Below, in pieces: positions 14,700 through 38,757 of a stretch of 64,000 bases of DNA. Origin of the DNA: Parapontixanthobacter aurantiacus (GTDB taxonomy: Bacteria > Pseudomonadota > Alphaproteobacteria > Sphingomonadales > Sphingomonadaceae); assembly GCF_009827635.1 (NCBI RefSeq), contig NZ_WTYW01000003.1, positions 248,001-312,000 on the forward strand, read 5' to 3'. The position numbers and the translations under genes were made by a program. The notes under the pieces were generated by a model. It saw nothing but the letters and a program-made list of their open reading frames with translations. It was not told the DNA's origin and ran no database searches. How positions within the stretch are numbered: position 1 is the stretch's first letter; each line of letters opens with the position of its first letter.

Positions 14700-15230
14700 T
14701 CAGGCGTAGGCGAGACCCGTATTAACGACGGTCGGCTTGCGGCGCCGCATCGCTCCGCCCACGGCTGCGAAGCCGACGAGTAGCAGTGCCCAGGTGCCCG
14801 GTTCCGGCACGGCAGCGGTCGATGCGAAGCTGATTGTGCCCGCAAAGCTCGCATTGCCGCCGCTGATACCGTTGACGGTCAGCGTCTGCGTTCCGGCGAG
14901 CGTGGCAAGCGTCAGGCCGCCGAACTCGAACGTGTCGTTGGCGGACATGATGAACGGCGTGCCGTTCAGCAGGACCGACGTGAAGTCGAGATTGGTCATC
15001 ATGTTGACGGCGATCGAGGTGATCGAAGTGCTGGTAATTCCGTCGGTCGGCAATTCGAACGTGAATTCACGGGTGAATTCGCCCGCGCCCTTCACGACGC
15101 CGGAGAATTTACCGCTTAGCTGCGTGTCGTCGCCCGTCAGGACGATTTCTGCAGCATTGGCAGCGCTGGCCGGGACCATCATCGCGATGGCTGCCGGGGC
15201 GCTCAGCAAGGCTAGGCTGAGGTTTTTCAT
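14700..15230 (-). CDS. FxDxF-type PEP-CTERM sorting-domain protein
   Basis: A 176-residue exported protein with a signal peptide (MKNLSLALLSAPAAIAMMVP...ANAAE) and a C-terminal sorting tag: VPEPGTWALLLVGFAAVGGA then MRRRKP. This tripartite tag (PEP motif, hydrophobic helix, arginine cluster) is recognised by an exosortase, which processes the protein for surface or extracellular release. The body has FTREFTFELPTDG and TNLDFTSVLLNG, as in the FxDxF PEP-CTERM subfamily. The start at ATG 15230 has AAGGGA eight bases upstream; an in-frame ATG at 15248 would make the ribosome-binding site part of the coding region. No exosortase gene is in the window. Confidence 0.88.
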   Translation of the reverse strand: MKNLSLALLSAPAAIAMMVPASAANAAEIVLTGDDTQLSGKFSGVVKGAGEFTREFTFELPTDGITSTSITSIAVNMMTNLDFTSVLLNGTPFIMSANDTFEFGGLTLATLAGTQTLTVNGISGGNASFAGTISFASTAAVPEPGTWALLLVGFAAVGGAMRRRKPTVVNTGLAYA

Positions 15231-15273
15231 CAGGTTGGTTCCCTTCATCGAGACGGTTCTCTCGTAAGGATTT

Positions 15274-15351
15274 GTTTACTTCTACTTCGCAATACCGACA
15301 ATAGAGATAGTGAAGGCTTCCTGTTTCATTACGGGAGTCAACCAAGTAAAC
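15274..15351. repeat. Inverted GTTTACTT pair upstream of the PEP-CTERM gene
   Basis: GTTTACTT (15274-15281) and its exact reverse complement AAGTAAAC (15344-15351) flank 62 bp in the 294-bp gap between the divergent PEP-CTERM and ald genes. A third related site, AAGGTAAAC, lies near 15407. They could be binding sites for a regulator of either gene. Eight-base matches in an AT-richer spacer can arise by chance, and no promoter elements were confidently placed. Confidence 0.3.
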
Positions 15352-15524
15352 AGATGACGAAATGGCGGAAATTGGCGCGTCGTTTCTCCCCCGAATATTG
15401 AAGGACAAGGTAAACGCCAGCGCTTTAGGGGCGATCTGCGCCTATTGCGCCACAGATGATGTTGCCCATTGAAGCGGGTTCGTTTCACCTGTAACGGCTT
15501 GGCCTCCCCCGAAAGAGAGACGTC

Positions 15525-16637
15525 ATGCTGATCGGTTGCCCCAAGGAAATCAAGAACCACGAATATCGCGTCGGGCTGACCCCGGAAAGCGCGCGCGAAC
15601 TTGTCGCGAATGGCAGCGATGTCTGGATCGAGAGCGGGGCGGGGCTCGGCATCGGGGCGACCGACGCTCAATATCGCGCGACGGGTGCGACGATCGTCGA
15701 GGGTCCGGAGCGCATCTTCGCCGAGTGCGAGATGGTCGTGAAAGTGAAGGAACCTCAGGCCGAGGAGCGCGCCATGCTGCGCCGCGGCCAGATCCTCTAT
15801 ACCTACCTCCATCTTGCTCCCGACGAGCCCCAGACGAAGGATCTCGTCGATTCAGGCGTCACCGCGATCGCCTACGAGACCGTCACCGGACCGGGCGGAA
15901 CGCTGCCCCTGTTGAAACCGATGAGCCAGGTGGCCGGCCGCATGAGCGTGCAGGCAGGCGCAACCGCGCTGGAAAAGGCGCATGGCGGACGCGGCGTCCT
16001 GCTCGGCGGGGTTCCGGGAGTGATGCCCGGCAAGGTCGTCGTCATCGGCGGCGGGGTCGTCGGCTTCAACGCCGCGCAGATGGCCGTGGGTCTCGGCGCG
16101 CAGGTCGTCATCATGGACCGCGATCCCGAAGTGCTCGACAAGGTCGGCACCTTTTTCGAGAACCGTGCCAGCACGCGCTTTTCCAACCGCGCCAATCTGG
16201 AGGAAGCGATCGCGGAAGCCGACCTCGTGATCGGGGCGGTCCTCATTCCGGGCGCGTCCGCGCCCAAGCTCGTCACGCGCGAACTGCTCGGCTCGATGAA
16301 GCCGGGCGCCGTGCTGGTCGACGTTGCGATCGACCAGGGCGGTTGTTTCGAAACCTCCAGGCCCACGACCCATGCCGAGCCGACCTATGTCGTTGACGAG
16401 ATCGTGCATTACTGCGTCGCGAACATGCCGGGCGCCGTCGCCCGGACGAGCACCTATGCCCTGAACAACGTCACCCTGCCCCATGCCCTGCACATTGCGC
16501 GGTCGGGCTGGAAGGACGCGATGCGCGAAAATCCGCATCTCGCCGCGGGTCTCAACGTCCATGAAGGACACGTGACCTATGAAGCGGTCGCGCAGGAACA
16601 GGGTTACGACTACGTTCCCGTTGCGTCGCTTCTCTAA
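15525..16637 (+). CDS. ald: Alanine dehydrogenase
   Basis: NAD-dependent enzyme interconverting L-alanine and pyruvate plus ammonia, used to catabolise alanine or assimilate ammonium. The 370-residue length is exact for the family. It begins [20 protein letters not shown], has the catalytic Lys75 (VVKVKEP) and His96 (YTYLHLAPD), the segment [15 protein letters not shown], a Rossmann motif [15 protein letters not shown] near residues 172-186, and the C-terminal [17 protein letters not shown] 15525 has GAGAG a short distance upstream. It is a single gene, divergent from the PEP-CTERM gene. Confidence 0.96.
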
Positions 16638-16711
16638 TCCCGACGGATTAACTTGTCGCATTCATACAATTTTAGAAATTTAACTCAAACCTAGGGAATC
16701 GGCGCTATGAA

Positions 16712-18466
16712 ATGCTCATGCGCCCGACGCTCGACAGTTTTGCAGTAGTGCCCGCAGCACTTCGCAAGGCGGCGATTGCCGTGGCGCTTGCGCTATGCGG
16801 GTTGTTCGCGACTCAGGCCTCAGCCGCCACCGTCGAACCCGACTGTTTTCTTGCCGGACTGCACGAATCGCTGGCGGATATCGAGCGCATTGCCGCCGAT
16901 GCCGAGCCTGGCAACTGCGTACCGGCGAAGGAAGTCTCCGGGCTGGGCGACTGGACCGTCGTCTTCCGGCTCCCGGCGGACAGTAACGCCGAATATCTTT
17001 CGATGCGGCTCGGCAAGGTCGATAGCGTCGCCGTTTCCGCGCGCAATGCCGAGGGGGAATGGCGGCGCACGACCTATGCGGGCGACAAGCTGACCGCGAG
17101 CTACGAAGGCCCGGAAATGGTGGCCGGGCTGCCGCAGGACGGCGGTGAAGCACGGGTGGTAATCGCTGCGATCGAGGGAAGCGGTCATCCGCCAACCATC
17201 CTCAAAAGCGCCATCACGCTCAATGATCCGGCGGAATACGACACCCGCCTCATCGAACTGATGCTGTTGTCCGCGCTCGTGGGAATGGTCGTCATTCCTG
17301 CGCTTATCTATCTCGGCTTCTTCCGCGTTCTGAGCGAAACCTTCCTGATCTGGTATGCCCTGTTCAGCATCAGCCTTGCCGGCATCGTCCTTTTGCGCAG
17401 TGGCCTCATCAACGTGTTCGTGCCGCTCCCGGTCGACATCTGGCGCATCGCGAACATCATCAACATGGCCCTCGTCGTCGCCTTCGCCGTCATGTTAACC
17501 AGCCGCTTCATCGAACGCGACAAGCTGACGCCGCAATTCCGTATGATCGCCCCTTATGTCGCGGGGTGGACCATCGCGATGAGCGTGATCTATGCGGGCG
17601 ATCCGCCCTTCCTCGAACCCTTCGGCTCGGCGTTCCATACGATCGGAATGGTGCCTGCAGCGCTGCTCGTCTGCGCCATGCTGGCCGATGCGTATCGGCG
17701 CGGGAGCCGTTCGGTCATCCTCCAGCTCGCCGCTTGGATTCCGCTGCTTTCCCTGTTCCTTCTCCAGATATTGAACGCGATGCGCAGCGCAAACGCCTAT
17801 TCGGACTTCCTTCCGTGGTTCTATGTCAGCCTGCTCTGGCAGGTCGTCATCTCTTCCTGGGCGGTGGCCGATAGATTCTTCGTGATGAAGCGGCAACGCG
17901 ACAGCGCCATCCTCGAGGCCGACGTCCTCTCGCGGCGCAGCGAGCGCGATCCGCTGACCGGCCTCTATAACCGGCGCGCGCTCGACAGCCGCTGGCACGA
18001 TCTGCAGTCCTGCGACTATCGCACGGTGGCAATTCTCGACATCGACCACTTCAAGACCGTGAACGACGTGCATGGCCACATCGTCGGCGACCAGGTCCTG
18101 AAGATCATCGGCCAGGTGCTGCGCGGCGACCGAGACAACATCGCCATTCGCATGGGCGGGGAGGAATTCCTCATCCTGCTGCGCGGTTCGGACGCGGTGA
18201 CGCGGGCCGACCTGCTGAGGCGGCGCGTCACCGTGCGCGTCGCGGAGGAAATGCACGATCTCGAAATGCCTGTAACGGCGAGCATGGGGACGGTGACCCT
18301 CCCGGAAAAGGCCGACAACCGCCTCGAATTTTCGGACGTCTATTCACGGGTTGACCTGCTTCTCTACGAAGCCAAGCGGTCGGGCCGTAACCGCATGATC
18401 GCGCGCAACTGGGACGTGCTCAAACTGGAGACCTTCCCCGACAAGGATAGCGTCGCAGCCGAATGA
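16712..18466 (+). CDS. Membrane diguanylate cyclase (7TMR-DISM plus GGDEF)
   Basis: A 584-residue inner-membrane protein predicted to make cyclic di-GMP. It has an N-terminal signal or first span (residues ~15-38), a periplasmic region to ~165 of the DISM-extracellular type, about seven spans between ~170 and 390, and a cytoplasmic GGDEF domain from ~405 to 565. The domain contains RDPLTGLYNRRALDSRW, ILDIDHFKTVNDVHGH and the active-site variant GGEEF near residue 482, which is functional in many cyclases. I see no RxxD inhibitory site five residues before GGEEF. ATG 16712 is used; ATG 16718 is equally possible. The stop is 10 bp from the convergent thioesterase stop. Confidence 0.88.
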   Translation: MLMRPTLDSFAVVPAALRKAAIAVALALCGLFATQASAATVEPDCFLAGLHESLADIERIAADAEPGNCVPAKEVSGLGDWTVVFRLPADSNAEYLSMRLGKVDSVAVSARNAEGEWRRTTYAGDKLTASYEGPEMVAGLPQDGGEARVVIAAIEGSGHPPTILKSAITLNDPAEYDTRLIELMLLSALVGMVVIPALIYLGFFRVLSETFLIWYALFSISLAGIVLLRSGLINVFVPLPVDIWRIANIINMALVVAFAVMLTSRFIERDKLTPQFRMIAPYVAGWTIAMSVIYAGDPPFLEPFGSAFHTIGMVPAALLVCAMLADAYRRGSRSVILQLAAWIPLLSLFLLQILNAMRSANAYSDFLPWFYVSLLWQVVISSWAVADRFFVMKRQRDSAILEADVLSRRSERDPLTGLYNRRALDSRWHDLQSCDYRTVAILDIDHFKTVNDVHGHIVGDQVLKIIGQVLRGDRDNIAIRMGGEEFLILLRGSDAVTRADLLRRRVTVRVAEEMHDLEMPVTASMGTVTLPEKADNRLEFSDVYSRVDLLLYEAKRSGRNRMIARNWDVLKLETFPDKDSVAAE

Positions 18467-18476
18467 GGCCGAGCGC

Positions 18477-18881
18477 TCAGTCGCTCTCCGCCATGAACGG
18501 CGCAGCGACCTCGGGACGGATCCGCACGAGCCGCCCGCTGGCGCGTTCCAGCATCGCCCAGGTGCTGCGCGCGGCGACGATCACCTTGCCGCTCTCGTCA
18601 CGGAAATCGACGCAGCGGTCGAACCGCGCCCCCTTGGGCGGATCGGGGATGTAGGTCGTCACCTCAACGCGCTCGCCCTCGCGCACATTGCCGCGATAGT
18701 CGATCTCGTGCCGCGTCACGACCCAGACGAAGCGGTCGCGGTGTTCGGGGTCGGCGACGGCATTCCAGTGCTCGGTCGCGATATCCTGCACCCATTGGAG
18801 CCAGACCGTGTTGTTCACATGGCCGAGCTCGTCAATGTGCCGGGTTTCTGCAGTGAAGTTGCGGGTATACGCCGCGCTCAC
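18477..18881 (-). CDS. Acyl-CoA thioesterase, 4HBT hotdog family
   Basis: A 134-residue hotdog-fold thioesterase like YbgC/FcbC proteins, hydrolysing an acyl-CoA to the free acid. The catalytic region is in TRHIDELGHVNNTVWLQWV with the Asp and neighbouring His-Val-Asn-Asn typical of the family, followed by VVTRHEIDYRGNVREGE and later VIVAARSTWAMLE. It starts with GTG at 18881, overlapping the stop of the upstream S9 peptidase (GTGA), so translation is probably coupled. Substrate length is unknown. Confidence 0.87.
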   Translation of the reverse strand: MSAAYTRNFTAETRHIDELGHVNNTVWLQWVQDIATEHWNAVADPEHRDRFVWVVTRHEIDYRGNVREGERVEVTTYIPDPPKGARFDRCVDFRDESGKVIVAARSTWAMLERASGRLVRIRPEVAAPFMAESD

Positions 18882-21040
18882 TTCTCCAGCCCGAGTTGCG
18901 TCAGGAAGAAGGCGAATTCCTCCGCCTGCTCGTAGAGGCGGCGGAAGCGGCCCGACTTGCCCCCATGACCTGCGCCCATATTGGTCTTGAGCAGGAGGAG
19001 GTTGTCGTCCGTCTTCACCTCACGCAGCTTCGCGACCCACTTCATCGGCTCCCAATAAGTGACGCGCGGATCGTTGAGCCCGGCAGTCACGAGCATCGGC
19101 GGATAGTCCTGCGCCACGACCTGATCGTAGGGGGAGTAGGACAGGATGTAGGCGAAGGCCTGCTTCGATTCGATCGGATTGCCCCATTCCGGCCATTCGC
19201 CCGGCGTCAGCGGGAGACTCTCGTCGAGCATCGTGTTGAGGACGTCGACGAAGGGCACGTGTGCCGCGACCGCGCCCCACAGTTCGGGATCGGTGTTGAC
19301 GATTACGCCCATCAGTTCGCCGCCCGCGCTGCCGCCGCTTGCGGTGATCCGGCCCTTCGCGGTGTAGCCTTGCTCGACCAAGCCCTTCGCCACGTCGACG
19401 AAGTCGTTGAACGTGTTGGTCCGCGCGTTCATCTTGCCCTGCAGATACCAGTTGCGGCCCAGATCGTCGCCGCCGCGAATATGCGCGATGGCATAGGACA
19501 TGCCGCGATCTAGCAGCGACAGGCGCGAAGTCGAGAAGCCCGGCGGCACGGCGTAGCCATAGGCGCCATAGGCATAGAGGTGCAGCGGGGCGCCCCCTGC
19601 GTCGGGGCCGGGCGTGTCCTTCCTTCGGACGACGCTGACCGGGATCATTGCCCCGTCGCGGGCTCGGATGGTCAGGCGCTCCGTGACGTAGTCCGCTGCA
19701 TTGTAGCCGCTCGGTATTTCGTCCTGCTTCAGCAATTCGAGCGTGCCGCTCGCCATGTCGTAATCATAGACCGAACCGGGCGTAACCATGCTCTCGTAGG
19801 ACAGACGCAGCTTCGATACGTCGTATTCAGGGTTGTTGCTGAGCCCGGTCACGTAGCTCGCCTCGGGAAAGGTGATCGGAATGAAGCGGCCTGCATCGTC
19901 GTAAGATCGGATCTGCACCTGGTCGAGGCCGTTAAGGCGGCCTTCCGTGACGTAGAAGTCCTTGAACAGGTCGAAATCGGTCAGGTAGAATTCGTCCGAG
20001 CCGGGGATCAGCGTCGTCCATTCGCCCGGTTTGTCGAGGGGGGCGGTGGCGACGCGGAAATTGACATGCTCGTCATTCGTATGGACGAACAGCGTGTCGC
20101 CGCGCACGTCGACATCGTATTCGATGCCCTTCCGGCGCGGTTTTACGAGGATCTGCTCGCCGGTCGGATCGTCGGCGCGCACGAGGCGGACTTCGCTCGT
20201 CTCGTTGTCGCCGGTCGCGATAACGATCCAGTCTTCCTGCGCGGTCAGGCCGGTTCCGACGCGAAAGCCCTCGTCTTCCTCGCGATAGATCTCGATGTCC
20301 TCGGCTACGTCGGTGCCGATCCGGTGAAGCCGCGCATTGTCGACGCGCCAGTTCTCGTTCGCCTTGCCGTAGAGGATGGCACTGTCGTTCGCGACCCAGT
20401 TGAGGCCGGACAGGGTTTCCGGGATGACGTCGTCCAACAGCTCGCCGGTTTGCAGATCCTTGATGCGTGCGGTGAACCGCTCCGATCCGTTATCGTCGTA
20501 GGAATAGGCGAGATAGCGTCCGTCGTCGCTGACCGAGAATGCGCCGAGGCGGAAATAATCCTTGCCCTCGGCAAGCTGGTTCTGATCGAGCAGCAATTCG
20601 TCGGGACCGCCCGCGACGGGCTTCCTCCAGTGGAGGCGATACTCCTTCCCTTCCTCGACGCTGGACCAGTAGAGCCAGTCGCCATCCTTTTGCGGGACCG
20701 AGGAATCGTCCTGCTTCATCCGGCCCTTCAGTTCCTCGTAAATCGTCTCGACGAGCTGTTCGTGCGGCGCCATCTGCGCTTCGAAATAGGCGTTTTCCTT
20801 CTCCAGATGCGCGATGACGTCGGCATCGTCGATCGTGGGATAGGACTGGTCCTTCATCCAGTGATAGGGGTCGGAAATGGTGATCCCGTGGCGCGTATAT
20901 TCATGGGGTCGCTTTTCTGCGACGGGCGGCGAAACGCGGGTCTCGGTCAAGTCGGTCTGATCCTCGGCTGGCTGGGCGGTGAGCGGCGGCGCCGCGAAAA
21001 GGCCTGCTGCGACGAGCAGGGCGTAGGCGGAGATTTTCAT
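18878..21040 (-). CDS. S9A prolyl-oligopeptidase / oligopeptidase B-like peptidase, exported
   Basis: A 720-residue serine peptidase with a signal peptide (MKISAYALLVAAGLFAAPPLTAQ), so it probably acts in the periplasm on short peptides. The N-terminal propeller part starts HEYTRHGITISDPYHWMKDQ. The catalytic triad is visible in order near the C-terminus: Ser in TASGGSAGGELMG, Asp in GLNDPRVTYWEP and His in NMGAGHGGKSGR. ATG 21040 is chosen because it opens the signal peptide; the reading frame stays open far upstream across the divergent aminopeptidase gene, but that extension is antisense shadow. It is divergent from the Xaa-Pro aminopeptidase by 120 bp, forming a peptide-degradation pair. 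Confidence 0.92.
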   Translation of the reverse strand: MKISAYALLVAAGLFAAPPLTAQPAEDQTDLTETRVSPPVAEKRPHEYTRHGITISDPYHWMKDQSYPTIDDADVIAHLEKENAYFEAQMAPHEQLVETIYEELKGRMKQDDSSVPQKDGDWLYWSSVEEGKEYRLHWRKPVAGGPDELLLDQNQLAEGKDYFRLGAFSVSDDGRYLAYSYDDNGSERFTARIKDLQTGELLDDVIPETLSGLNWVANDSAILYGKANENWRVDNARLHRIGTDVAEDIEIYREEDEGFRVGTGLTAQEDWIVIATGDNETSEVRLVRADDPTGEQILVKPRRKGIEYDVDVRGDTLFVHTNDEHVNFRVATAPLDKPGEWTTLIPGSDEFYLTDFDLFKDFYVTEGRLNGLDQVQIRSYDDAGRFIPITFPEASYVTGLSNNPEYDVSKLRLSYESMVTPGSVYDYDMASGTLELLKQDEIPSGYNAADYVTERLTIRARDGAMIPVSVVRRKDTPGPDAGGAPLHLYAYGAYGYAVPPGFSTSRLSLLDRGMSYAIAHIRGGDDLGRNWYLQGKMNARTNTFNDFVDVAKGLVEQGYTAKGRITASGGSAGGELMGVIVNTDPELWGAVAAHVPFVDVLNTMLDESLPLTPGEWPEWGNPIESKQAFAYILSYSPYDQVVAQDYPPMLVTAGLNDPRVTYWEPMKWVAKLREVKTDDNLLLLKTNMGAGHGGKSGRFRRLYEQAEEFAFFLTQLGLEK

Positions 21041-32024: not shown

Positions 32025-32333
32025 ATGCGTTTCAACATGATCCCTGCGCTTTCGCTGCCGCTGGTCCTCGCCTTGGGTGCCTGCGCCAATTCGGAAGACG
32101 CTTCCACGGAGGCCGAAGCCGATACGGTCGAAATTCCCGCCTTCGACGCGCTGTCGAACGTGGATGAATTACCGGTCGCGGACCCTGAGGCAAACACCGA
32201 TCTAGGTGTCGACGAGGGCGAAGTCGAAGAAGGCGAAGAGGGCGCAGAAGCCACCGACGCCGAAGCGAGCGACGCCGCCGACGAAGCCGCAGAAGCCGCC
32301 CCTGCTACGGCAGGCGACGAAGAAACCGAGTAG
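32025..32333 (+). CDS. Small acidic lipoprotein, function unknown
   Basis: A 102-residue protein with a lipoprotein signal ending at the lipobox LALGAC (Cys21) and Ala at +2, which predicts outer-membrane sorting. The mature part is almost entirely Glu, Asp and Ala (for example GEVEEGEEGAEATDAEASDA) with no aromatic residues after the first third, so it is probably disordered. It sits 21 bp before the acyl-CoA dehydrogenase gene. It has the same design as the lipoprotein at 38874-39131 but no clear sequence match. I do not recognise a family. Confidence 0.7.
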   Translation: MRFNMIPALSLPLVLALGACANSEDASTEAEADTVEIPAFDALSNVDELPVADPEANTDLGVDEGEVEEGEEGAEATDAEASDAADEAAEAAPATAGDEETE

Positions 32334-32354: not shown

Positions 32355-33539
32355 ATGAGCGAGACCGTCAGCGCGAACGGCATGGACAGCGAGACTTTCG
32401 ACCAGTTCATCGACCAGCTCGAACGCTATGTGCGCGAGCGTCTCCTGCCCGCGGAAAAGGAAGTCATCGCAAACGATCGGGTGCCCGAGGATATTCTCTC
32501 GGAAATGAAGGATATGGGTCTGTTCGGCCTGACCGTGCCGGAAGACTACGGAGGCGCGGGCCTCAATACGCGGCAATATGCGCAAGTCGTCAGGACGATT
32601 GCCTATGCAGCGCCTGCCTTCCGTTCGATCTTCTCGATCAATGTCGGCATGTTCAATTCCGCCATCAAGAATGGCGGGACGGACGAACAGAAGGCGGAAT
32701 GGTGGCCGCGCATCGCGGCAGGCGAAGTCGCGTGTTTCGGTTTGACCGAACCTGGCAGCGGTTCCGACAGCGCGGCGATGCAGACTTTCGCCAAGCCCGA
32801 CCCGGACGGCAATGGCTGGATCTTGAACGGTACGAAGCGTTACATCACCAATGCGCCTCATGCCGATGTCGGGCTCATCATGGCACGCACCGAAAAGGAC
32901 GCGCTACCCAAAAACGCGCATGTCAGCGCCTTCATCGTGCCGATGGACACGCCCGGCGTCTCGGTCGGCAGCGCCGATGAGAAGATGGGCCAGGCGGGCA
33001 GCCACGTGGCCGACGTCATGCTCGACGACGTCCACGTTCCGGGCGATGCCCTGCTCGGCGGGGAGACGGGGCAGGGTTTCCGCTTTGCGATGCAGAGCCT
33101 CGATAACGGCCGCATTTCGGTCGGCGCAGCGTCGACCGGCTATGCGCGCCGCGCCCTCGACAGCGCGCTTAAATATGCGAACGAGCGGCAGGCTTTCGGA
33201 GAGCCGATCGCCAACTTCCAGCTTATCCAGCAAATGCTGGCGGAAAGCTGGACCGAAATCTACGCTGCCGAAGCGATGATGGCGGACGTCACAGCCCGCG
33301 TGGACCGGGGCGAGGATACGATCAAGCACGCCGCGGCATTCAAGGCGTTCGCTTCTGAAATGTGCGGGCGGGTCGTGGACCGCGTCGTCCAAATTTATGG
33401 TGGGGCCGGCTATCTTGCCGAATATGATGCGGAACGCTTCTTCCGCGATGCCCGCATCTATCGCATCTACGAAGGCACGACGCAGATCCTGCAGTTGCAG
33501 ATCGCCAAGCGGATGTTGCGCGAATATGCCAATATGTAA
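32355..33539 (+). CDS. Acyl-CoA dehydrogenase
   Basis: A 394-residue FAD enzyme that makes an alpha,beta double bond in an acyl-CoA. Motifs are the FAD/substrate loop CFGLTEPGSGSDSAAMQT, the segment GTKRYITNA, and the C-terminal QIYGGAGYLAEYDAERFFRDARIYRIYEGTTQI, here read as two joined family motifs, with the catalytic Glu near residue 372. Subclass (short-chain, branched-chain or other) cannot be set by eye. It leads a run of acyl-CoA genes in the same direction: CoA-transferase, thiolase and hydratase. Confidence 0.92.
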   Translation: MSETVSANGMDSETFDQFIDQLERYVRERLLPAEKEVIANDRVPEDILSEMKDMGLFGLTVPEDYGGAGLNTRQYAQVVRTIAYAAPAFRSIFSINVGMFNSAIKNGGTDEQKAEWWPRIAAGEVACFGLTEPGSGSDSAAMQTFAKPDPDGNGWILNGTKRYITNAPHADVGLIMARTEKDALPKNAHVSAFIVPMDTPGVSVGSADEKMGQAGSHVADVMLDDVHVPGDALLGGETGQGFRFAMQSLDNGRISVGAASTGYARRALDSALKYANERQAFGEPIANFQLIQQMLAESWTEIYAAEAMMADVTARVDRGEDTIKHAAAFKAFASEMCGRVVDRVVQIYGGAGYLAEYDAERFFRDARIYRIYEGTTQILQLQIAKRMLREYANM

Positions 33540-33592
33540 TGGCGATCGCGGACGCCGCTCGGGACCGGCAGTGCGCGTACGGGTGCTGCTGA

Positions 33593-34837
33593 ATGTATAA
33601 TCTGCTGCCCGATCTCTCGATCATCGAGGTGCCGAGTTTCATCGCGTCGCCGACTGCCGGCCTTTATTGTGCGCAGATGGGAGCCGAGGTCATCCGCATC
33701 GACCAGATTGGCGGGGGGCTCGACTACAATCGCTATCAGGTGACGGAGGAAGGCCGTTCGCTCACCTGGGAGAATCTCAATCGCGCGAAGAAGTCGGTCG
33801 CGATTGACATGCGCAGCGAAGAGGGGCGCGAACTCGTCGTCGAACTGGCGCGCAAAACCGGCCAGCTTATCACCAATGTCCCCGAAAAGAGTTTTCTCTC
33901 GCATGAGCGTATTGTCGAAGGGCGACCGGACATGATCACCTTGCGCGTTATGGGCTGGTATGACGGGCGGCAGGCGATGGACTTCACCGTGCACGCGGCG
34001 AGTGGCTATCCCCTCATGACCGGTCCTGACGAGTGGGATCGCGACACCGCGCCGCCGGTCAACCAGATCCTGCCGGCCTGGGACTTCCTGACGGGCGCTT
34101 ATAGCGCATTCGCGCTGATGACGGCGCTGCGGCATCGCGAAAGGACGGGCGAGGGCAATCACGTACGTGTCCCGCTCGGCGACGTCATGATGGCAACGGT
34201 CGCGAATAGCGGCGCGATGGCCGAGATGCTCTACCGTGGGGAGAACCGCGAACGGCTCGGCAATTCGATCTGGGGCGCGCTGGGCCGCGATTTCAAAACG
34301 CGCGACGGCGAGCGCATGATGGTCGCGGCGCTGACGAACAAGCAATGGCGCGCCATGATCGAGGCGTTCGACGTCGCGGACGATATTGCGGCGCTCGAGG
34401 CGGAACGCGGCGTATCCTTCGCGAAGAGCGACCATAACCGGTTCAGCAATCGCGATGCCCTGTTCGCGATATTTCAGAACGCCGCCGATCGCTTCGATTA
34501 TGCCGAGCTGGCTCACCGCCTCACAAAAGCGGGTGCGACCTTCGAGAAGTATCGCACGATGCATGAAGCTGCGAGCGACAAGCGGCTGGTCGAAGACAAC
34601 CCGCTTTTCGGTCCCTCGCCCCGAAATCCGAGCGGGTTCGAATATCCCGCCGCCGGATCGATGGCGAACCTGCCTTCGCAGGAACGCCAACCGCCCGAGC
34701 CAGCGCCCTTCCTTGGCCAGCACAGCGAGGAAGTTCTCGCAGAGCGTCTGGGACTGGCGTCGGGAGAAATCGCCCGACTGATCGACAGGAAACTGGTCGC
34801 GAAGAGCGACGAGCATAATTTCGAGGACAATCGATGA
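33593..34837 (+). CDS. Family III CoA-transferase (CaiB/BaiF), 2-methylfumaryl-CoA isomerase-like
   Basis: A 414-residue class III CoA-transferase. The likely catalytic Asp164 is in LPAWDFLTGAYSA. Other recognisable pieces are AQMGAEVIRIDQIGGGLDYN, LNRAKKSVAIDMRSEEGREL, FTVHAASGYPLMTGP and RTGEGNHVRVPLGDVMMATVAN. From memory, GGGLDY, the TVNAATGFP-type stretch and the xNHxLPAWD stretch are features of mesaconyl-CoA C1-C4 transferase (2-methylfumaryl-CoA isomerase) rather than of carnitine or formyl-CoA transferases; this is an unaided judgement. Its ATGA overlap with the thiolase and the MaoC-like hydratase downstream support a shared pathway. Confidence 0.82.
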   Translation: MYNLLPDLSIIEVPSFIASPTAGLYCAQMGAEVIRIDQIGGGLDYNRYQVTEEGRSLTWENLNRAKKSVAIDMRSEEGRELVVELARKTGQLITNVPEKSFLSHERIVEGRPDMITLRVMGWYDGRQAMDFTVHAASGYPLMTGPDEWDRDTAPPVNQILPAWDFLTGAYSAFALMTALRHRERTGEGNHVRVPLGDVMMATVANSGAMAEMLYRGENRERLGNSIWGALGRDFKTRDGERMMVAALTNKQWRAMIEAFDVADDIAALEAERGVSFAKSDHNRFSNRDALFAIFQNAADRFDYAELAHRLTKAGATFEKYRTMHEAASDKRLVEDNPLFGPSPRNPSGFEYPAAGSMANLPSQERQPPEPAPFLGQHSEEVLAERLGLASGEIARLIDRKLVAKSDEHNFEDNR

Positions 34838-36063
34838 ATCTACGCCGCGCTGCAATCGTTTCTCCCCTGCGTACCCCGGTAGGCAAGTTCCTGGGGACGC
34901 TCGCCCCGCTCGAAGCAGGCGAGCTCGGTGCGATCATCATCAAGGCTCTGGTGGAGAGGACGGGTATCCATCCCGAACGCGTCGACGACGTCGTTTTCAG
35001 CCAAGGTTACGGCAGCGGTGAAGCGCCGGCTATCGGGCGCTGGTCATGGCTGGCCGCGGGAATGCCGATTTCGGTACCGGGCTACCAGCTCGATCGGCGG
35101 TGCGGTTCGGGCCTGCAGGCCGTCGCGAGCGCGGCGATGATGGTCCAGACGGGCGCGGCGGACATGGTGCTGGCGGGCGGCGTCGAGTCCATGTCGAATG
35201 TCGAGCATTACTCTACCGACATTCGCAAGGGAGCGCGCTTCGGCGATCTCGTATTGCATGACCGGCTTACGCGTGGACGGCTGATGAGCCAGCCCATCGA
35301 GCGGTTCGGCGTCATCAGCGGAATGATCGAAACGGCCGAGAACCTTGCGCGCGATTACGGCATCAGCCGGGAAGCGAGCGATGCCTACGCCGTCCGCTCG
35401 CACCGCAACGCCGCGGCGGCCTGGGAAGCAGGGAAGTTCGACGAGCATATCGTTCCGGTCCCCGTCCCGCAGCGCAAGGGCGATCCCCTGATGTTCGCAA
35501 AGGACGAAGGGTTCCGCGAGGATGCGAGCATGGAGACCCTGAGCAGCCTTCGCGCGATCGAGGGCAAGGACAATCCCGATGCGGTCGTCACCGCCGGCAA
35601 TGCCAGCCAGCAGAACGATGCCGCGGCAGCCTGCCTGATCGTGGCCGAGGACAAGCTGGCGGAGTTCGGCCTCGAACCCATGCTGTGGCTCAATGGCTGG
35701 GCAGCGGCCGGTTGCGATCCTTCGCGCATGGGAATCGGTCCCGTACCCGCTGTCGACCGCCTGTTCCATCGCAGCGGAATGAGCTGGGACGATATCGGGC
35801 TCGTCGAACTGAACGAGGCCTTCGCGCCGCAGGTTCTTGCCGTGCTGAAAGGCTGGGGCTGGTCGGATGACGATAGCCGTCGCGAGATGCTGAACGTGAA
35901 CGGGTCGGGAATTTCCCTCGGCCATCCGATCGGTGCCACTGGCATTCGTATTCTTGCCGACATGGCGCATGAGATGAAGCGGCGCGACGTTCGCTTCGGG
36001 CTCGAAACCATGTGCATCGGCGGTGGTCAGGGCATGGCCGCCGTCTTCGAGCGCGCCGTCTGA
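34834..36063 (+). CDS. Thiolase (acetyl-CoA acetyltransferase/acyltransferase)
   Basis: A 409-residue thiolase that cleaves or condenses 3-ketoacyl-CoA. The acylated cysteine is Cys90 in YQLDRRCGSGLQAVASA, the catalytic His is in SLGHPIGATG, and the second cysteine is in CIGGGQGMAAVFE. ELNEAFAPQVLAVLKGWGW holds the family NEAFA. The start overlaps the CoA-transferase stop by four bases (ATGA). It is one of two thiolases in the window; the other is at 46874. Confidence 0.93.
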   Translation: MNLRRAAIVSPLRTPVGKFLGTLAPLEAGELGAIIIKALVERTGIHPERVDDVVFSQGYGSGEAPAIGRWSWLAAGMPISVPGYQLDRRCGSGLQAVASAAMMVQTGAADMVLAGGVESMSNVEHYSTDIRKGARFGDLVLHDRLTRGRLMSQPIERFGVISGMIETAENLARDYGISREASDAYAVRSHRNAAAAWEAGKFDEHIVPVPVPQRKGDPLMFAKDEGFREDASMETLSSLRAIEGKDNPDAVVTAGNASQQNDAAAACLIVAEDKLAEFGLEPMLWLNGWAAAGCDPSRMGIGPVPAVDRLFHRSGMSWDDIGLVELNEAFAPQVLAVLKGWGWSDDDSRREMLNVNGSGISLGHPIGATGIRILADMAHEMKRRDVRFGLETMCIGGGQGMAAVFERAV

Positions 36064-36071
36064 CAAGCGCC

Positions 36072-36932
36072 ATGCCCGGTTGGAAAGACTGGATCGGCCG
36101 CAGGGAAGTTCGCCGCGACCGTTTGACGACGGAACTGGCAGCGCGCTGGCTCGCGACATTCGACAAGGATGCTCGTAGCGAGGGCACGATGCCCCAAGGC
36201 ATTCACCTGTGTCTTGCGACGCCGGACGCCAGGACGGCGGAACTTGGCGATGACGGGCATCCGCGTCGGACTGAGGATGGTAGCTCGTTTCTGCCGGCGA
36301 TTCCGATGCCGCGCAGGATGTGGGCCGGCAGCCGGTTTCAATTTCATTCGCCCCTGACCATCGGAGCGCAGATCGAACGCGTTTCACACATTGTTTCGAT
36401 CGAGAAAAAGTCCGGTGCGACTGGACCTCTTGTTTTCGTCGAAATCGAGCATGACACGCTCGCCGATGCCGAACTTGCCGTGAGAGAGAGACAAACGCTC
36501 GTCTATCGCGAGGCTGCGCCATCCGATGCCCCCTTGTCGCCTGCGATAGTCAACGACGCTAACTTCGATGAAGCGGTCTGGGACGCGCATCATGTCATCA
36601 CTCCCGACGAGCGTTTGCTGTTTCGCTATTCTGCACTGACCTTCAATACACATCGCATTCACTATGACAGGCCCTATGCCGAGGACGTCGAGCGTTATCG
36701 CGGGCTCGTCGTGCACGGTCCCCTGATTGCGACAATGCTGCTCGATCTCGCGCAGTCAAAATTCGGCGATAACACGCTTTCCGAATTTTCATTCCGGGGA
36801 TTGTCCCCGGCGATCGCCGGGGAAGAACTTCACTTGGTGTTACGGCGAACAGGTGAGGATACCATCGAGCTCGCGGCCTTCGCCGGGGACGGACGACAAG
36901 TGACGAAGGCCGAAGCGCGCCTCATGATATAA
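36072..36932 (+). CDS. MaoC-like / FAS1-like acyl-CoA hydratase
   Basis: A 286-residue double-hotdog hydratase. The N-terminal half is of the FAS1-like/HTD2 dehydratase type (PAIPMPRRMWAGSRFQFHSPL, LVFVEIEHDT). The C-terminal half has LLFRYSALTFNTHRIHYDRP and GLVVHGPLIATMLLDL, the usual catalytic region with His. This architecture is shared by mesaconyl-C4-CoA hydratase and itaconyl-CoA hydratase as well as by less-defined proteins. ATG 36072 is eight bases after the thiolase stop; a longer in-frame reading from 36012 overlaps the thiolase. It is the last gene of the cassette. Confidence 0.85.
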   Translation: MPGWKDWIGRREVRRDRLTTELAARWLATFDKDARSEGTMPQGIHLCLATPDARTAELGDDGHPRRTEDGSSFLPAIPMPRRMWAGSRFQFHSPLTIGAQIERVSHIVSIEKKSGATGPLVFVEIEHDTLADAELAVRERQTLVYREAAPSDAPLSPAIVNDANFDEAVWDAHHVITPDERLLFRYSALTFNTHRIHYDRPYAEDVERYRGLVVHGPLIATMLLDLAQSKFGDNTLSEFSFRGLSPAIAGEELHLVLRRTGEDTIELAAFAGDGRQVTKAEARLMI

Positions 36933-36952: not shown

Positions 36953-37732
36953 TTATTCGACCGGAAAGTCGGATATCGGCCGTTTGACGGAGTAGCTCTC
37001 GGCTGCGGGCACATGATCCAGCGGCGGAAGATCGAACTGCGGCGTCGCGACCCGCGTAGCCGGGATGCGGTCCAGCAAATCGCGAACGAGGGTCAGTCGT
37101 CCGCGCTTCTGATCGTTGAAATCGACCAGCGTCCATGGCGCGTGCGGCGTGTCGGTGGCGCGCAGCATCCGCTCCCGCGCGTGCGTGTACGCATCGTATT
37201 GCTCGCGCGCGGCCAGATCGATCGGCGACAGCTTCCATCGCTTGAGCGGGTCTTCGCTTCGCTCTTTCAGACGATCTTCCTGCTGCTTCTGATCGGTCGT
37301 CAGCCAGTATTTGACGAGCAGCATCCCGTCATCGGTCAGCATCTTCTCGAAGACCGGCGCTTCTTCCAGGAACCTGCCCACCTCATCCTCGCTTGCATAG
37401 CCCATCACCGCCTCGACACCGGCGCGATTATACCAGCTGCGATCGAACAGCACGATTTCTCCGGCTGCAGGAAGATGCGCGGCATAACGCTGGAAATACC
37501 ATTGCGTGCGCTCGCGATCGGTTGGTTTGGGCAAGGCGACGATGCGACATTCGCGCGGATTGAGGTATCGCGAGACAGTCCGAATTGCACCGCCCTTGCC
37601 TGCCGTGTCGCGCCCCTCGAAAAGGACGCAGACTCTTGCGCCGGTTTCTCTTACCCAGCGGGCCATAGCCATCAGTCCGATGTTCATCGGTTCAAGCAAC
37701 CGCTCGTATTGCTTGCGCTTCAACTTTTCCAT
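36953..37732 (-). CDS. ppk2: Polyphosphate kinase 2
   Basis: A 259-residue PPK2-family kinase that phosphorylates nucleotides with polyphosphate (or the reverse). Walker A is FEGRDTAGKGG at residues 38-48 and Walker B/lid is LFDRSWYNRAGVE at ~95-107, followed by the arginine-rich lid segment EDPLKRWKLSPIDLAAREQYDAY. A single domain and the length fit class I PPK2 (ADP/GDP phosphorylating). The stop is 20 bp from the convergent hydratase stop; its start is 71 bp from the divergent phhA start. GGAG lies seven bases before the ATG. Confidence 0.94.
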   Translation of the reverse strand: MEKLKRKQYERLLEPMNIGLMAMARWVRETGARVCVLFEGRDTAGKGGAIRTVSRYLNPRECRIVALPKPTDRERTQWYFQRYAAHLPAAGEIVLFDRSWYNRAGVEAVMGYASEDEVGRFLEEAPVFEKMLTDDGMLLVKYWLTTDQKQQEDRLKERSEDPLKRWKLSPIDLAAREQYDAYTHARERMLRATDTPHAPWTLVDFNDQKRGRLTLVRDLLDRIPATRVATPQFDLPPLDHVPAAESYSVKRPISDFPVE

Positions 37733-37803
37733 CTCGCTTCTCCGCCAAACGCTGACGCCATTTGGAAGAAGCGGTCGCGCGTGGTATCATCTTCGCCAAG
37801 CAT

Positions 37804-38757
37804 ATGAATACACACGATCAAACCATTTTCGAAGCATCGACGCAGGATTTTACCGTCCTGCCGGACATGCCCGCCGACGTCTTTACGGCCCCTCTCAAGA
37901 AGCCCGATCATCTGGGTGACGACTGGCTCGAACCCGAGCAGACGCATTACGACACCGAGGATGACGCCATCTGGGACGATCTCTTCGCCCGGCAGATGGG
38001 CGTCCTGCCTGGCCGAGCGGCGAGCGCGTTTCTCGCAGGGCTGGAAAAACTCGACCTCGGGCGTGGCGGCGTGCCGGAATTTAAGGCGATATCCGAAGAG
38101 CTCGACCGGATGACGGGCTGGAGCGTCGTTCCAGTCCCGATGCTGATACCGGATCACGTGTTCTTCTGGCATCTTGCCAATCGTCGTTTCCCTGCGGGCA
38201 ACTTCATCCGGACGCGCGAGACTTTCGATTACATCCAGGAACCCGACGTTTTTCATGACGTGTTCGGCCATGTGCCGATGCTGACCGATCCGGTCTACGC
38301 CGACTACATGCAGGAATACGGGAAAGCCGGGTGGAAGGCGATGCGCTACAACCGTCTGAAAGCCCTTGGCGCGCTCTACTGGTACACGGTCGAATTCGGC
38401 CTCATTCAGGAAGAGGGCGAAATTCGCGCTTATGGAGCTGGTATCCTTTCAGGGCCGACCGAGGCGGTTTTCGCAACCGAGGCGGAAAGCCCCAATCGCA
38501 TCATGCTGAATGTCGATCGCGTCATGCGGACGGACTACGTAATCAGCGATCTGCAACCGACCTATTTCGTGATCGAAAGCTACGAAGACCTCTACCGCAA
38601 GACCGTGGAGCGGGACTTCGACCGCCTCTATCGCAGCTTGTCGCCATCCTTCACCTACGCAAATTCCGCAGTGATCGACGTGGACAATGTCGTCCATCTG
38701 GGCACGCAGGAATATTTGCTGCGGGGTGGTCGCGGGAGTGGCGCGAAACCTGTCTGA
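37804..38757 (+). CDS. phhA: Phenylalanine 4-monooxygenase
   Basis: A 317-residue non-haem-iron, tetrahydropterin-dependent hydroxylase converting phenylalanine to tyrosine. The iron ligands are His151 and His156 in DVFHDVFGHVPML and Glu197 in WYTVEFGLI; these and IPDHVFFWHLANRRFPAGNF match bacterial PhhA. There is no regulatory ACT domain, as is normal for bacterial enzymes. An in-frame TTG at 37762 exists, but ATG 37804 matches the usual N-terminus. No pterin-recycling gene is next to it. Confidence 0.94.
   Translation: MNTHDQTIFEASTQDFTVLPDMPADVFTAPLKKPDHLGDDWLEPEQTHYDTEDDAIWDDLFARQMGVLPGRAASAFLAGLEKLDLGRGGVPEFKAISEELDRMTGWSVVPVPMLIPDHVFFWHLANRRFPAGNFIRTRETFDYIQEPDVFHDVFGHVPMLTDPVYADYMQEYGKAGWKAMRYNRLKALGALYWYTVEFGLIQEEGEIRAYGAGILSGPTEAVFATEAESPNRIMLNVDRVMRTDYVISDLQPTYFVIESYEDLYRKTVERDFDRLYRSLSPSFTYANSAVIDVDNVVHLGTQEYLLRGGRGSGAKPV

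Follow-up and report, generated by a model that had tools for sequence, protein, structure and literature searches.

The question raised by this locus is what a relative of mesaconyl-CoA C1-C4 transferase (Mct), an enzyme of the 3-hydroxypropionate bi-cycle, does next to an acyl-CoA dehydrogenase and a thiolase. The locus lies in the window, by which we mean the whole analyzed stretch of 64,000 nucleotides from Parapontixanthobacter aurantiacus. Positions 32355-36932 hold four intact and tightly packed genes on the plus strand:

32355..33539, + strand: acyl-CoA dehydrogenase (ACAD), 394 amino acids; Pfam Acyl-CoA_dh_N/M/1
33593..34837, + strand: Mct-like family III CoA-transferase, 414 amino acids; TIGR04253, structures 8apq/7xkg, tree
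34834..36063, + strand: LinJ-type thiolase, 409 amino acids; PRK06205, 76% identity to the thiolase of a linGHIJ-like locus
36072..36932, + strand: double-hotdog hydratase of the itaconyl-/mesaconyl-C4-CoA hydratase type, 286 amino acids; best PDB match 8khg

On balance, we read this operon as a probable module for breaking down branched C5-C6 dicarboxylyl-CoA esters, probably methyl-substituted ones, and as a reduced relative of a fuller operon of other sphingomonads. Every reaction and substrate named below is a prediction from what was observed, namely protein families, gene order, lineage, individual residues, and the absence of methylsuccinyl-CoA dehydrogenase (Mcd) from the genome.

The original prediction, made from the window alone, had described a tight unit of these four genes, and Pfam and NCBIfam searches agreed with the families. 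The start of the thiolase gene overlaps the end of the transferase gene by 4 bases. The open reading frame (ORF) listed for the hydratase opens at GTG 36012; the start was set at ATG 36072, which yields 286 amino acids and agrees with the relatives. Scans for promoters and terminators revealed no signal clearly exceeding that of shuffled sequence. Of the 24 other loci of the window's transferase clade, 23 have an ACAD near the transferase, 23 a thiolase, and 17 the hydratase. Pairwise dN/dS of the transferase in close pairs of this clade was about 0.10 to 0.13, and the gene is thus under purifying selection. Taken together, these values show that the operon association is more than chance.

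The transferase was assigned by profile searches, structure matches, and phylogeny. It matched CoA_transf_3, and the top-ranking model was TIGR04253 (2-methylfumaryl-CoA isomerase) with 300 bits, the runner-up family reaching 92 bits. The equivalog cut-off of TIGR04253 (725 bits) was not reached, and relatives encoded near Mcd or the hydratase likewise stayed below it (locus L065, 419 bits; locus L091, 349 bits). The best PDB matches were two Mct chains, 8apq and 7xkg (E about 1e-84), with no further chain better than 1e-21. Identity with Chloroflexus Mct amounted to 40% over 398 columns. The motifs GGGLDY, TVHAASGYPLMTGP, and LPAWD, from which a 2-methylfumaryl-CoA isomerase-like protein had originally been predicted, occur in the protein and align with Mct. 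A tree of 136 rows separated the Mct-like rows from succinate/glutarate-type transferases and from CaiB outgroups of the same genome (SH-aLRT 99), and the window's transferase grouped with 24 to 25 rows (99 and 96), all of its own locus family. Chloroflexus Mct was placed far from this clade. This tree and that of the ACADs are single "quick" runs with SH-aLRT support only, and because the outgroup branches are long, neither the root nor the precise sister group of the window's clade is certain. Three short rows (L064, L077, and L167) were omitted from the transferase tree, and the two locus sets used overlap in part (identical rows L062/L151 and L090/L170). Methyl-branched acyl-CoA racemase (AMACR) was rejected as an identity, AMACR chains scoring 23 bits versus 289 for Mct, and so was itaconate CoA-transferase, as the protein is only 24% identical to that of a Burkholderia itaconate-type cluster. 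On these comparisons, the transferase belongs to the Mct lineage and not to general CaiB proteins or itaconate CoA-transferases.

Does it act within one molecule or between two? Asp164, Arg47, and Leu43 of the window's transferase align with Mct Asp165, Arg47, and Leu43, and Phe131 aligns with Mct Tyr136 (residue numbers of the window's protein were counted by hand on the structure alignment). Mct Asn100 and Asp135 are retained. The catalytic aspartate was present in all 133 Mct-like rows and Arg47 in 132 of them, the remaining row having a gap; the roles of both residues in Mct are described in PMC9813914 and PMC9196870. According to PMC9813914, Leu43 narrows the tunnel like a "cork", every intramolecular enzyme compared there has Leu or Ile at this position, Arg47 occupies the space of the mobile glycine loop, and Tyr136 together with Arg47 binds the free carboxyl of mesaconyl-CoA. 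At Mct position 43, the window and 23 of the 25 clade rows have Leu; Pro occupies it in 29/29 rows of the neighboring clade and in 68/78 other rows. Because Leu43 is kept, the clade looks intramolecular by this single published sequence criterion, but the pocket for the substrate has changed. The putative role of the transferase is to shift CoA intramolecularly from one carboxyl of a branched dicarboxylyl-CoA to the other.

Family III CoA-transferases are mostly intermolecular, and no CoA ligase gene is present inside the four-gene operon, as would suit an ordinary intermolecular enzyme supplying a beta-oxidation operon with an activated dicarboxylic acid. We nevertheless consider such an enzyme improbable, because the protein sits in the Mct lineage, because Leu43 and Arg47 are kept (PMC9813914), and because several relatives possess a separate succinate/glutarate-type transferase adjoining the Mct-like gene.

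For the hydratase, Pfam detected only part of one hotdog region (PF13452, 31.9 bits), and NCBIfam models matched neither this protein nor its Burkholderia itaconate-type counterpart. The best solved relative was itaconyl-CoA hydratase 8khg (252 residues, E 2e-51). The protein is 42% identical to the hydratase of the Burkholderia itaconate-type cluster and 55% identical to that of an Mct-Mcd-HYD-CCL operon (HYD, hydratase; CCL, citramalyl-CoA lyase) on plasmid pSHV1; hydratases from Mct/Mcd operons are generally the closer ones, most of them at 54-64%. A core consisting of LFRxSAxTFNxHRIHYD and VVHGP, picked here as a shared feature and not a published family definition, was invariant in 20/20 aligned rows. 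By pairwise comparison with 8khg, the Burkholderia enzyme, and the operon hydratases, the protein is of the Ich/Meh type, in line with the mesaconyl-C4/itaconyl-CoA hydratase design proposed at the outset. Neither protein was placed among unrelated CaiB or MaoC proteins, as judged from the tree for the transferase and solely from pairwise comparison for the hydratase. Relatives of the two proteins also co-occur: in a panel of 197 genomes, including the window's own, 45 held a transferase relative at 41% identity or more, and hydratase kin were present in 40 of these 45 versus 11 of the 152 others. Mcd was present in 19 of the 45 and in 23 of the 152.

The origin of the operon is evident from its relatives. 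An operon with the order SDR-ACAD-Mct-THL-Mcd-HYD (THL, thiolase) was found in loci L041, L057, L060, L158, L166, L168, and L169. The large ACAD of these operons gave 618 bits over its whole length to 6es9, which we take to be methylsuccinyl-CoA dehydrogenase, and the next chain gave 278 bits, marking it as Mcd-type. Among the best 80 of at least 584 named-genome loci, 43 encoded Mcd (at least 50% identity) no more than 10 kb from the Mct-like gene; the corresponding counts were 31 for the hydratase, 24 for a LinJ-type thiolase, 16 for SDR, and 7 for CCL. In the 55 loci covered for 5 kb to either side, the respective numbers were 32, 22, 19, 12, and 5. The thresholds for counting neighbors were chosen after inspection of the locus listing. 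Mcd, hydratase, and CCL occurred together in six loci (L091, L138, L141, L142, L153, and L173), of which L091 on plasmid pSHV1 of Sphingobium herbicidovorans MH (15001-19499) is a contiguous Mct-Mcd-HYD-CCL array. Plasmid pCADAB1 of Sphingomonas sp. ERG5 (L090, 12001-15049) carries Mct, a small ORF, and Mcd, and a Paraburkholderia plasmid carries a hydratase, a lyase, ETF genes, a long acyl-CoA dehydrogenase, and the transferase. The window's operon is a reduced relative of the SDR-ACAD-Mct-THL-Mcd-HYD(-CCL) operon of other sphingomonads. Transferase and hydratase act consecutively in known chemistry, as had been pointed out before, and relatives in other Alphaproteobacteria carry the pair beside Mcd and sometimes beside CCL. 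From the same neighbors, the branched dicarboxylyl-CoA suggested originally is still the best guess for the substrate.

In the fuller operon, ACAD, a hydratase, and SDR would convert a methyladipyl-type CoA ester to methyl-3-oxoadipyl-CoA, which the LinJ-type thiolase would cleave to acetyl-CoA and methylsuccinyl-CoA. Mcd would form mesaconyl-C1-CoA, the Mct-like enzyme would move CoA from C1 to C4 via an anhydride on its aspartate, the hydratase would yield citramalyl-CoA, and CCL would release pyruvate and acetyl-CoA. The Mct-like step would thereby connect the C1 ester formed by Mcd with the C4 ester used by the hydratase. By the mechanism put forward for Mct (PMC9813914), Asp164 of the window's enzyme would attack the thioester, CoA would return to the aspartate, the acid would turn, and CoA would land on the other carboxyl. 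No description of an Mcd-Mct-hydratase-lyase route was found in those open-licence texts that were consulted. Such a route would provide a testable answer to the fate of methylsuccinyl-CoA when methyl-substituted aromatics or dicarboxylates are degraded. The Mct-like and Mcd genes of pSHV1 and pCADAB1 may form the final part of a route for methyl-substituted aromatics, handling the methylsuccinyl-CoA that arises from them; the two host strains degrade MCPA-type herbicides.

The window's thiolase exceeded the cut-off of PRK06205 (682 versus 551 bits) and stayed below that of the PcaF model (597), as did its LinJ-type counterpart (346 and 365 bits). Outside its own family, its best plasmid matches (75.7%) were in Sphingomonas sp. 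MM-1, on a record that we assume to be pISP0, and in Sphingobium sp. MI1205. The MI1205 thiolase gene is preceded by an IclR regulator gene and a divergent two-subunit transferase passing PcaI/J-type models. This is the order of linGHIJ, and the identification of the gene as linJ rests on this order and on PMC4289293. LinJ is a beta-ketoadipyl-CoA thiolase (PMC7119470), and the window's enzyme putatively cleaves a (methyl-)3-oxoadipyl-CoA.

The solved chains closest to the ACAD are short-chain acyl-CoA dehydrogenases. It is 34% identical to Mcd and 24% identical to the ACAD of the Burkholderia itaconate-type cluster, a value at which identity with the C4-type methylsuccinyl-CoA dehydrogenase of pseudomonads was ruled out. 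We propose that it catalyzes the first oxidation step on a dicarboxylyl-CoA. In the tree, it shared one clade with the ACADs of the SDR-ACAD-Mct-THL-Mcd-HYD operons. Loci L050 and L051 encode ACADs 89-90% and transferases 65-67% identical to those of the window, and for L033 and L034 the values are 68-69% and 72-73%. The two trees conflict although the gene order is conserved, which suggests that some members of the family have had their ACAD gene replaced.

Could the operon still serve carbon assimilation as a remnant or variant of the 3-hydroxypropionate bi-cycle? Mct and Meh act consecutively in that cycle, and meh and 2-methylfumaryl-CoA isomerase of Sphingopyxis/Sphingomonas are placed under carbon fixation in PMC9967899. 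The window's own genome (G000; 2.9 Mb, 7 contigs, 99.99% complete) contained no full-length Mch, one half-length MaoC match to annotated mch, no match to crotonyl-CoA carboxylase/reductase (Ccr) above the TIGR01751 cut-off, and a single generic CitE-like lyase, encoded at G000:C2:283896-284780. The lyase scored 172 bits with RipC_Ccl (cut-off 375), a model with which a cluster-borne lyase itself scored 154, and 46 bits with the haloarchaeal malyl-CoA lyase model. With no Ccr over cut-off and no Mcd, the ethylmalonyl-CoA pathway was rejected for this genome. The findings on Mch, Ccr, and the lyase, the distance of Chloroflexus Mct in the tree, and the linkage to a thiolase and a dehydrogenase make such a remnant or variant very unlikely (no search was aimed at malonyl-CoA reductase or propionyl-CoA synthase). 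The operon is not a fixation cycle. Its thiolase and dehydrogenase genes point to a catabolic rather than autotrophic role, and a tie to the bi-cycle is not supported. The earlier reference to related genes in Erythrobacter is correct for the transferase family, but the link of these genes to the bi-cycle is not supported. Authors working on Kentron regarded bi-cycle genes as uncommon and disjunct (PMC6593406). Mct is treated as a rare bi-cycle signature, and the gene context described here says that the sphingomonad copies are catabolic; mct and meh alone should be used with caution as markers of autotrophy.

Two further loci of the same genome were recorded. L080 (G000:C2, 7844-10634) comprises nitronate monooxygenase-like, family III transferase, and single-domain MaoC ORFs, the first and last named by eye; its MaoC protein gave the half-length match to annotated mch mentioned above, and there was no other. 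L081 (G000:C3, 6825-11014) comprises enoyl-CoA hydratase-like and MmgE/PrpD-like ORFs (both named by eye), a family III transferase, and an acyl-CoA dehydrogenase.

How would the reduced operon work? Among the 24 clade loci besides the window, 3 have SDR, a single one has Mcd, and none has CCL; of 24 clade genomes, 6 carry Mcd anywhere. The hydratase was present in 22/24 clade genomes, usually as a more distant copy elsewhere where it is missing at the locus. With Mcd, SDR, and an adjacent CCL gone from the window, the transferase would most likely still shift CoA within a 1,4-type dicarboxylyl-CoA and so let ACAD and hydratase work on the less hindered end. In one option, a saturated ester would be isomerized ahead of the ACAD step, in the way ThnP serves ThnO; in the other, a longer methyl-branched diacid would be turned round for beta-oxidation from the free end. 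The 3-oxoadipyl-type thiolase of the operon fits both options.

Several observations weigh against the catabolic module as proposed. The position of Mct Tyr136, which contacts the substrate's free carboxyl, is Phe in 25/25 rows of the window's clade and Tyr in 29/29 neighboring and 75/78 other rows. Mcd is absent from the window's genome, in which only plain ACADs of at most 37% identity were detected, none at E 1e-100 and the best lacking the N-terminal domain; no close SDR was found either (best 43%). Without Mcd and a close SDR, the full route cannot run there with known parts. The hydratase is missing from 7/24 clade loci, and the sole HpcH/CitE-type lyase of the genome is only 33% and 30% identical to the CCLs of two cluster types. 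The co-occurrence tests (Fisher p-values) ignore shared ancestry, and their presence lists were read off search outputs. In the literature searched, no assayed enzyme of the window's transferase clade was found.

Because the clade has lost Tyr136 throughout and Mcd for the most part, its substrate may differ from mesaconyl-CoA. Loss of Mcd alone was rejected as an explanation of the Tyr-to-Phe exchange, since locus L041 carries both Mcd and Phe136. Tentatively, we suggest that the clade might represent a new type of intramolecular CoA transferase that, following loss of Mcd, changed the mesaconate-binding tyrosine and isomerizes another branched dicarboxylyl-CoA, probably a saturated or longer one, to let beta-oxidation proceed from the opposite carboxyl. 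It would be the aerobic family III equivalent of ThnP. The clade would then constitute a natural experiment in substrate change of an Mct-like enzyme.

Mcd-less genomes might, alternatively, isomerize first: the remodeled transferase would convert methylsuccinyl-C1-CoA supplied by the thiolase to the C4 ester, ACAD would oxidize it directly to mesaconyl-C4-CoA, and the remaining steps would fall to the hydratase and to the CitE-like lyase of the genome. This sequence would account for the loss of Mcd with retention of the four genes, for Phe136 in the whole clade, and for the enrichment of a close CitE-like lyase (at least 55% identity, a cut chosen after the list had been seen), which was present in 24/45 transferase-positive versus 7/152 negative genomes. 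A C4-specific methylsuccinyl-CoA dehydrogenase does exist in pseudomonads (PMC12290011). We still judge this order of events rather unlikely, since the ACAD is so distant from the itaconate-type enzyme, since it shares a clade with ACADs encoded beside an intact Mcd and so probably has a different job, and since L041 combines Mcd with the remodeled transferase.

The surroundings of the operon were also inspected. A small acidic lipoprotein-like ORF (32025-32333, + strand, 102 amino acids, signal ending in LALGAC) stops 21 bases before the ACAD start. The hydratase gene is followed by a polyphosphate kinase 2-like (PPK2) ORF on the opposite strand and by a phenylalanine hydroxylase gene (phhA in an annotated relative). 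The two (36953-38757) adjoin the operon in most clade loci, which is probably plain synteny. Locus L064 (G009:C2:1-12500) is a second, split copy of the operon with fragmented transferase, thiolase, and ACAD matches beside pieces of the phenylalanine hydroxylase and PPK2 genes; it is either a decayed duplicate or an assembly problem. The window's genome is of Erythrobacteraceae type as judged by its matches, and the nearest named record sharing the gene order is plasmid plas1 of Qipengyuania citrea.

Among known systems, Chloroflexus Mct (8apq, 7xkg) is of the same lineage as the window's transferase, which shares its catalytic Asp, Arg47, Leu43, Asn100, and Asp135. The latter differs by the exchanges Tyr136 to Phe, Phe101 to Val, Arg104 to Lys, and Arg314 to Gly, by its TIGR04253 score (300 bits, cut-off 725), and by an operon context without Mch or Mcl. 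In the 3-hydroxypropionate bi-cycle, Mct and Meh are entered from Mch (PMC8307300), and the ethylmalonyl-CoA pathway runs through the C1 ester and employs Mch (PMC12290011). The hydratase resembles Ich/Meh (8khg) in the core motif and in its 42% identity to the itaconate-type cluster enzyme; it differs in being closer to the hydratases of Mct/Mcd operons and in lacking an NCBIfam match. The pseudomonad itaconate/methylsuccinate cluster (ict-ich-ccl-mcd-msi) has the same kind of hydratase together with an ACAD and likely a similar C5 dicarboxylate chemistry, but the window's transferase and ACAD are each only 24% identical to those of a Burkholderia cluster of that type. The pseudomonad route, moreover, proceeds via C4 esters throughout and needs no isomerase (PMC12290011). 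LinJ of lindane-degrading sphingomonads matches the thiolase at 76% over 408 residues, but the window's gene is linked to ACAD, transferase, and hydratase genes instead of linGHI. The proposed step itself is most reminiscent of ThnP from anaerobic naphthalene degradation, which moves CoA between the carboxyls of a branched dicarboxylyl-CoA so that the dehydrogenase ThnO can act, a precedent for beta-oxidation from the other carboxyl (PMC11659651). ThnP is an anaerobic enzyme of family I (Cat1), whereas the window's transferase is of family III.

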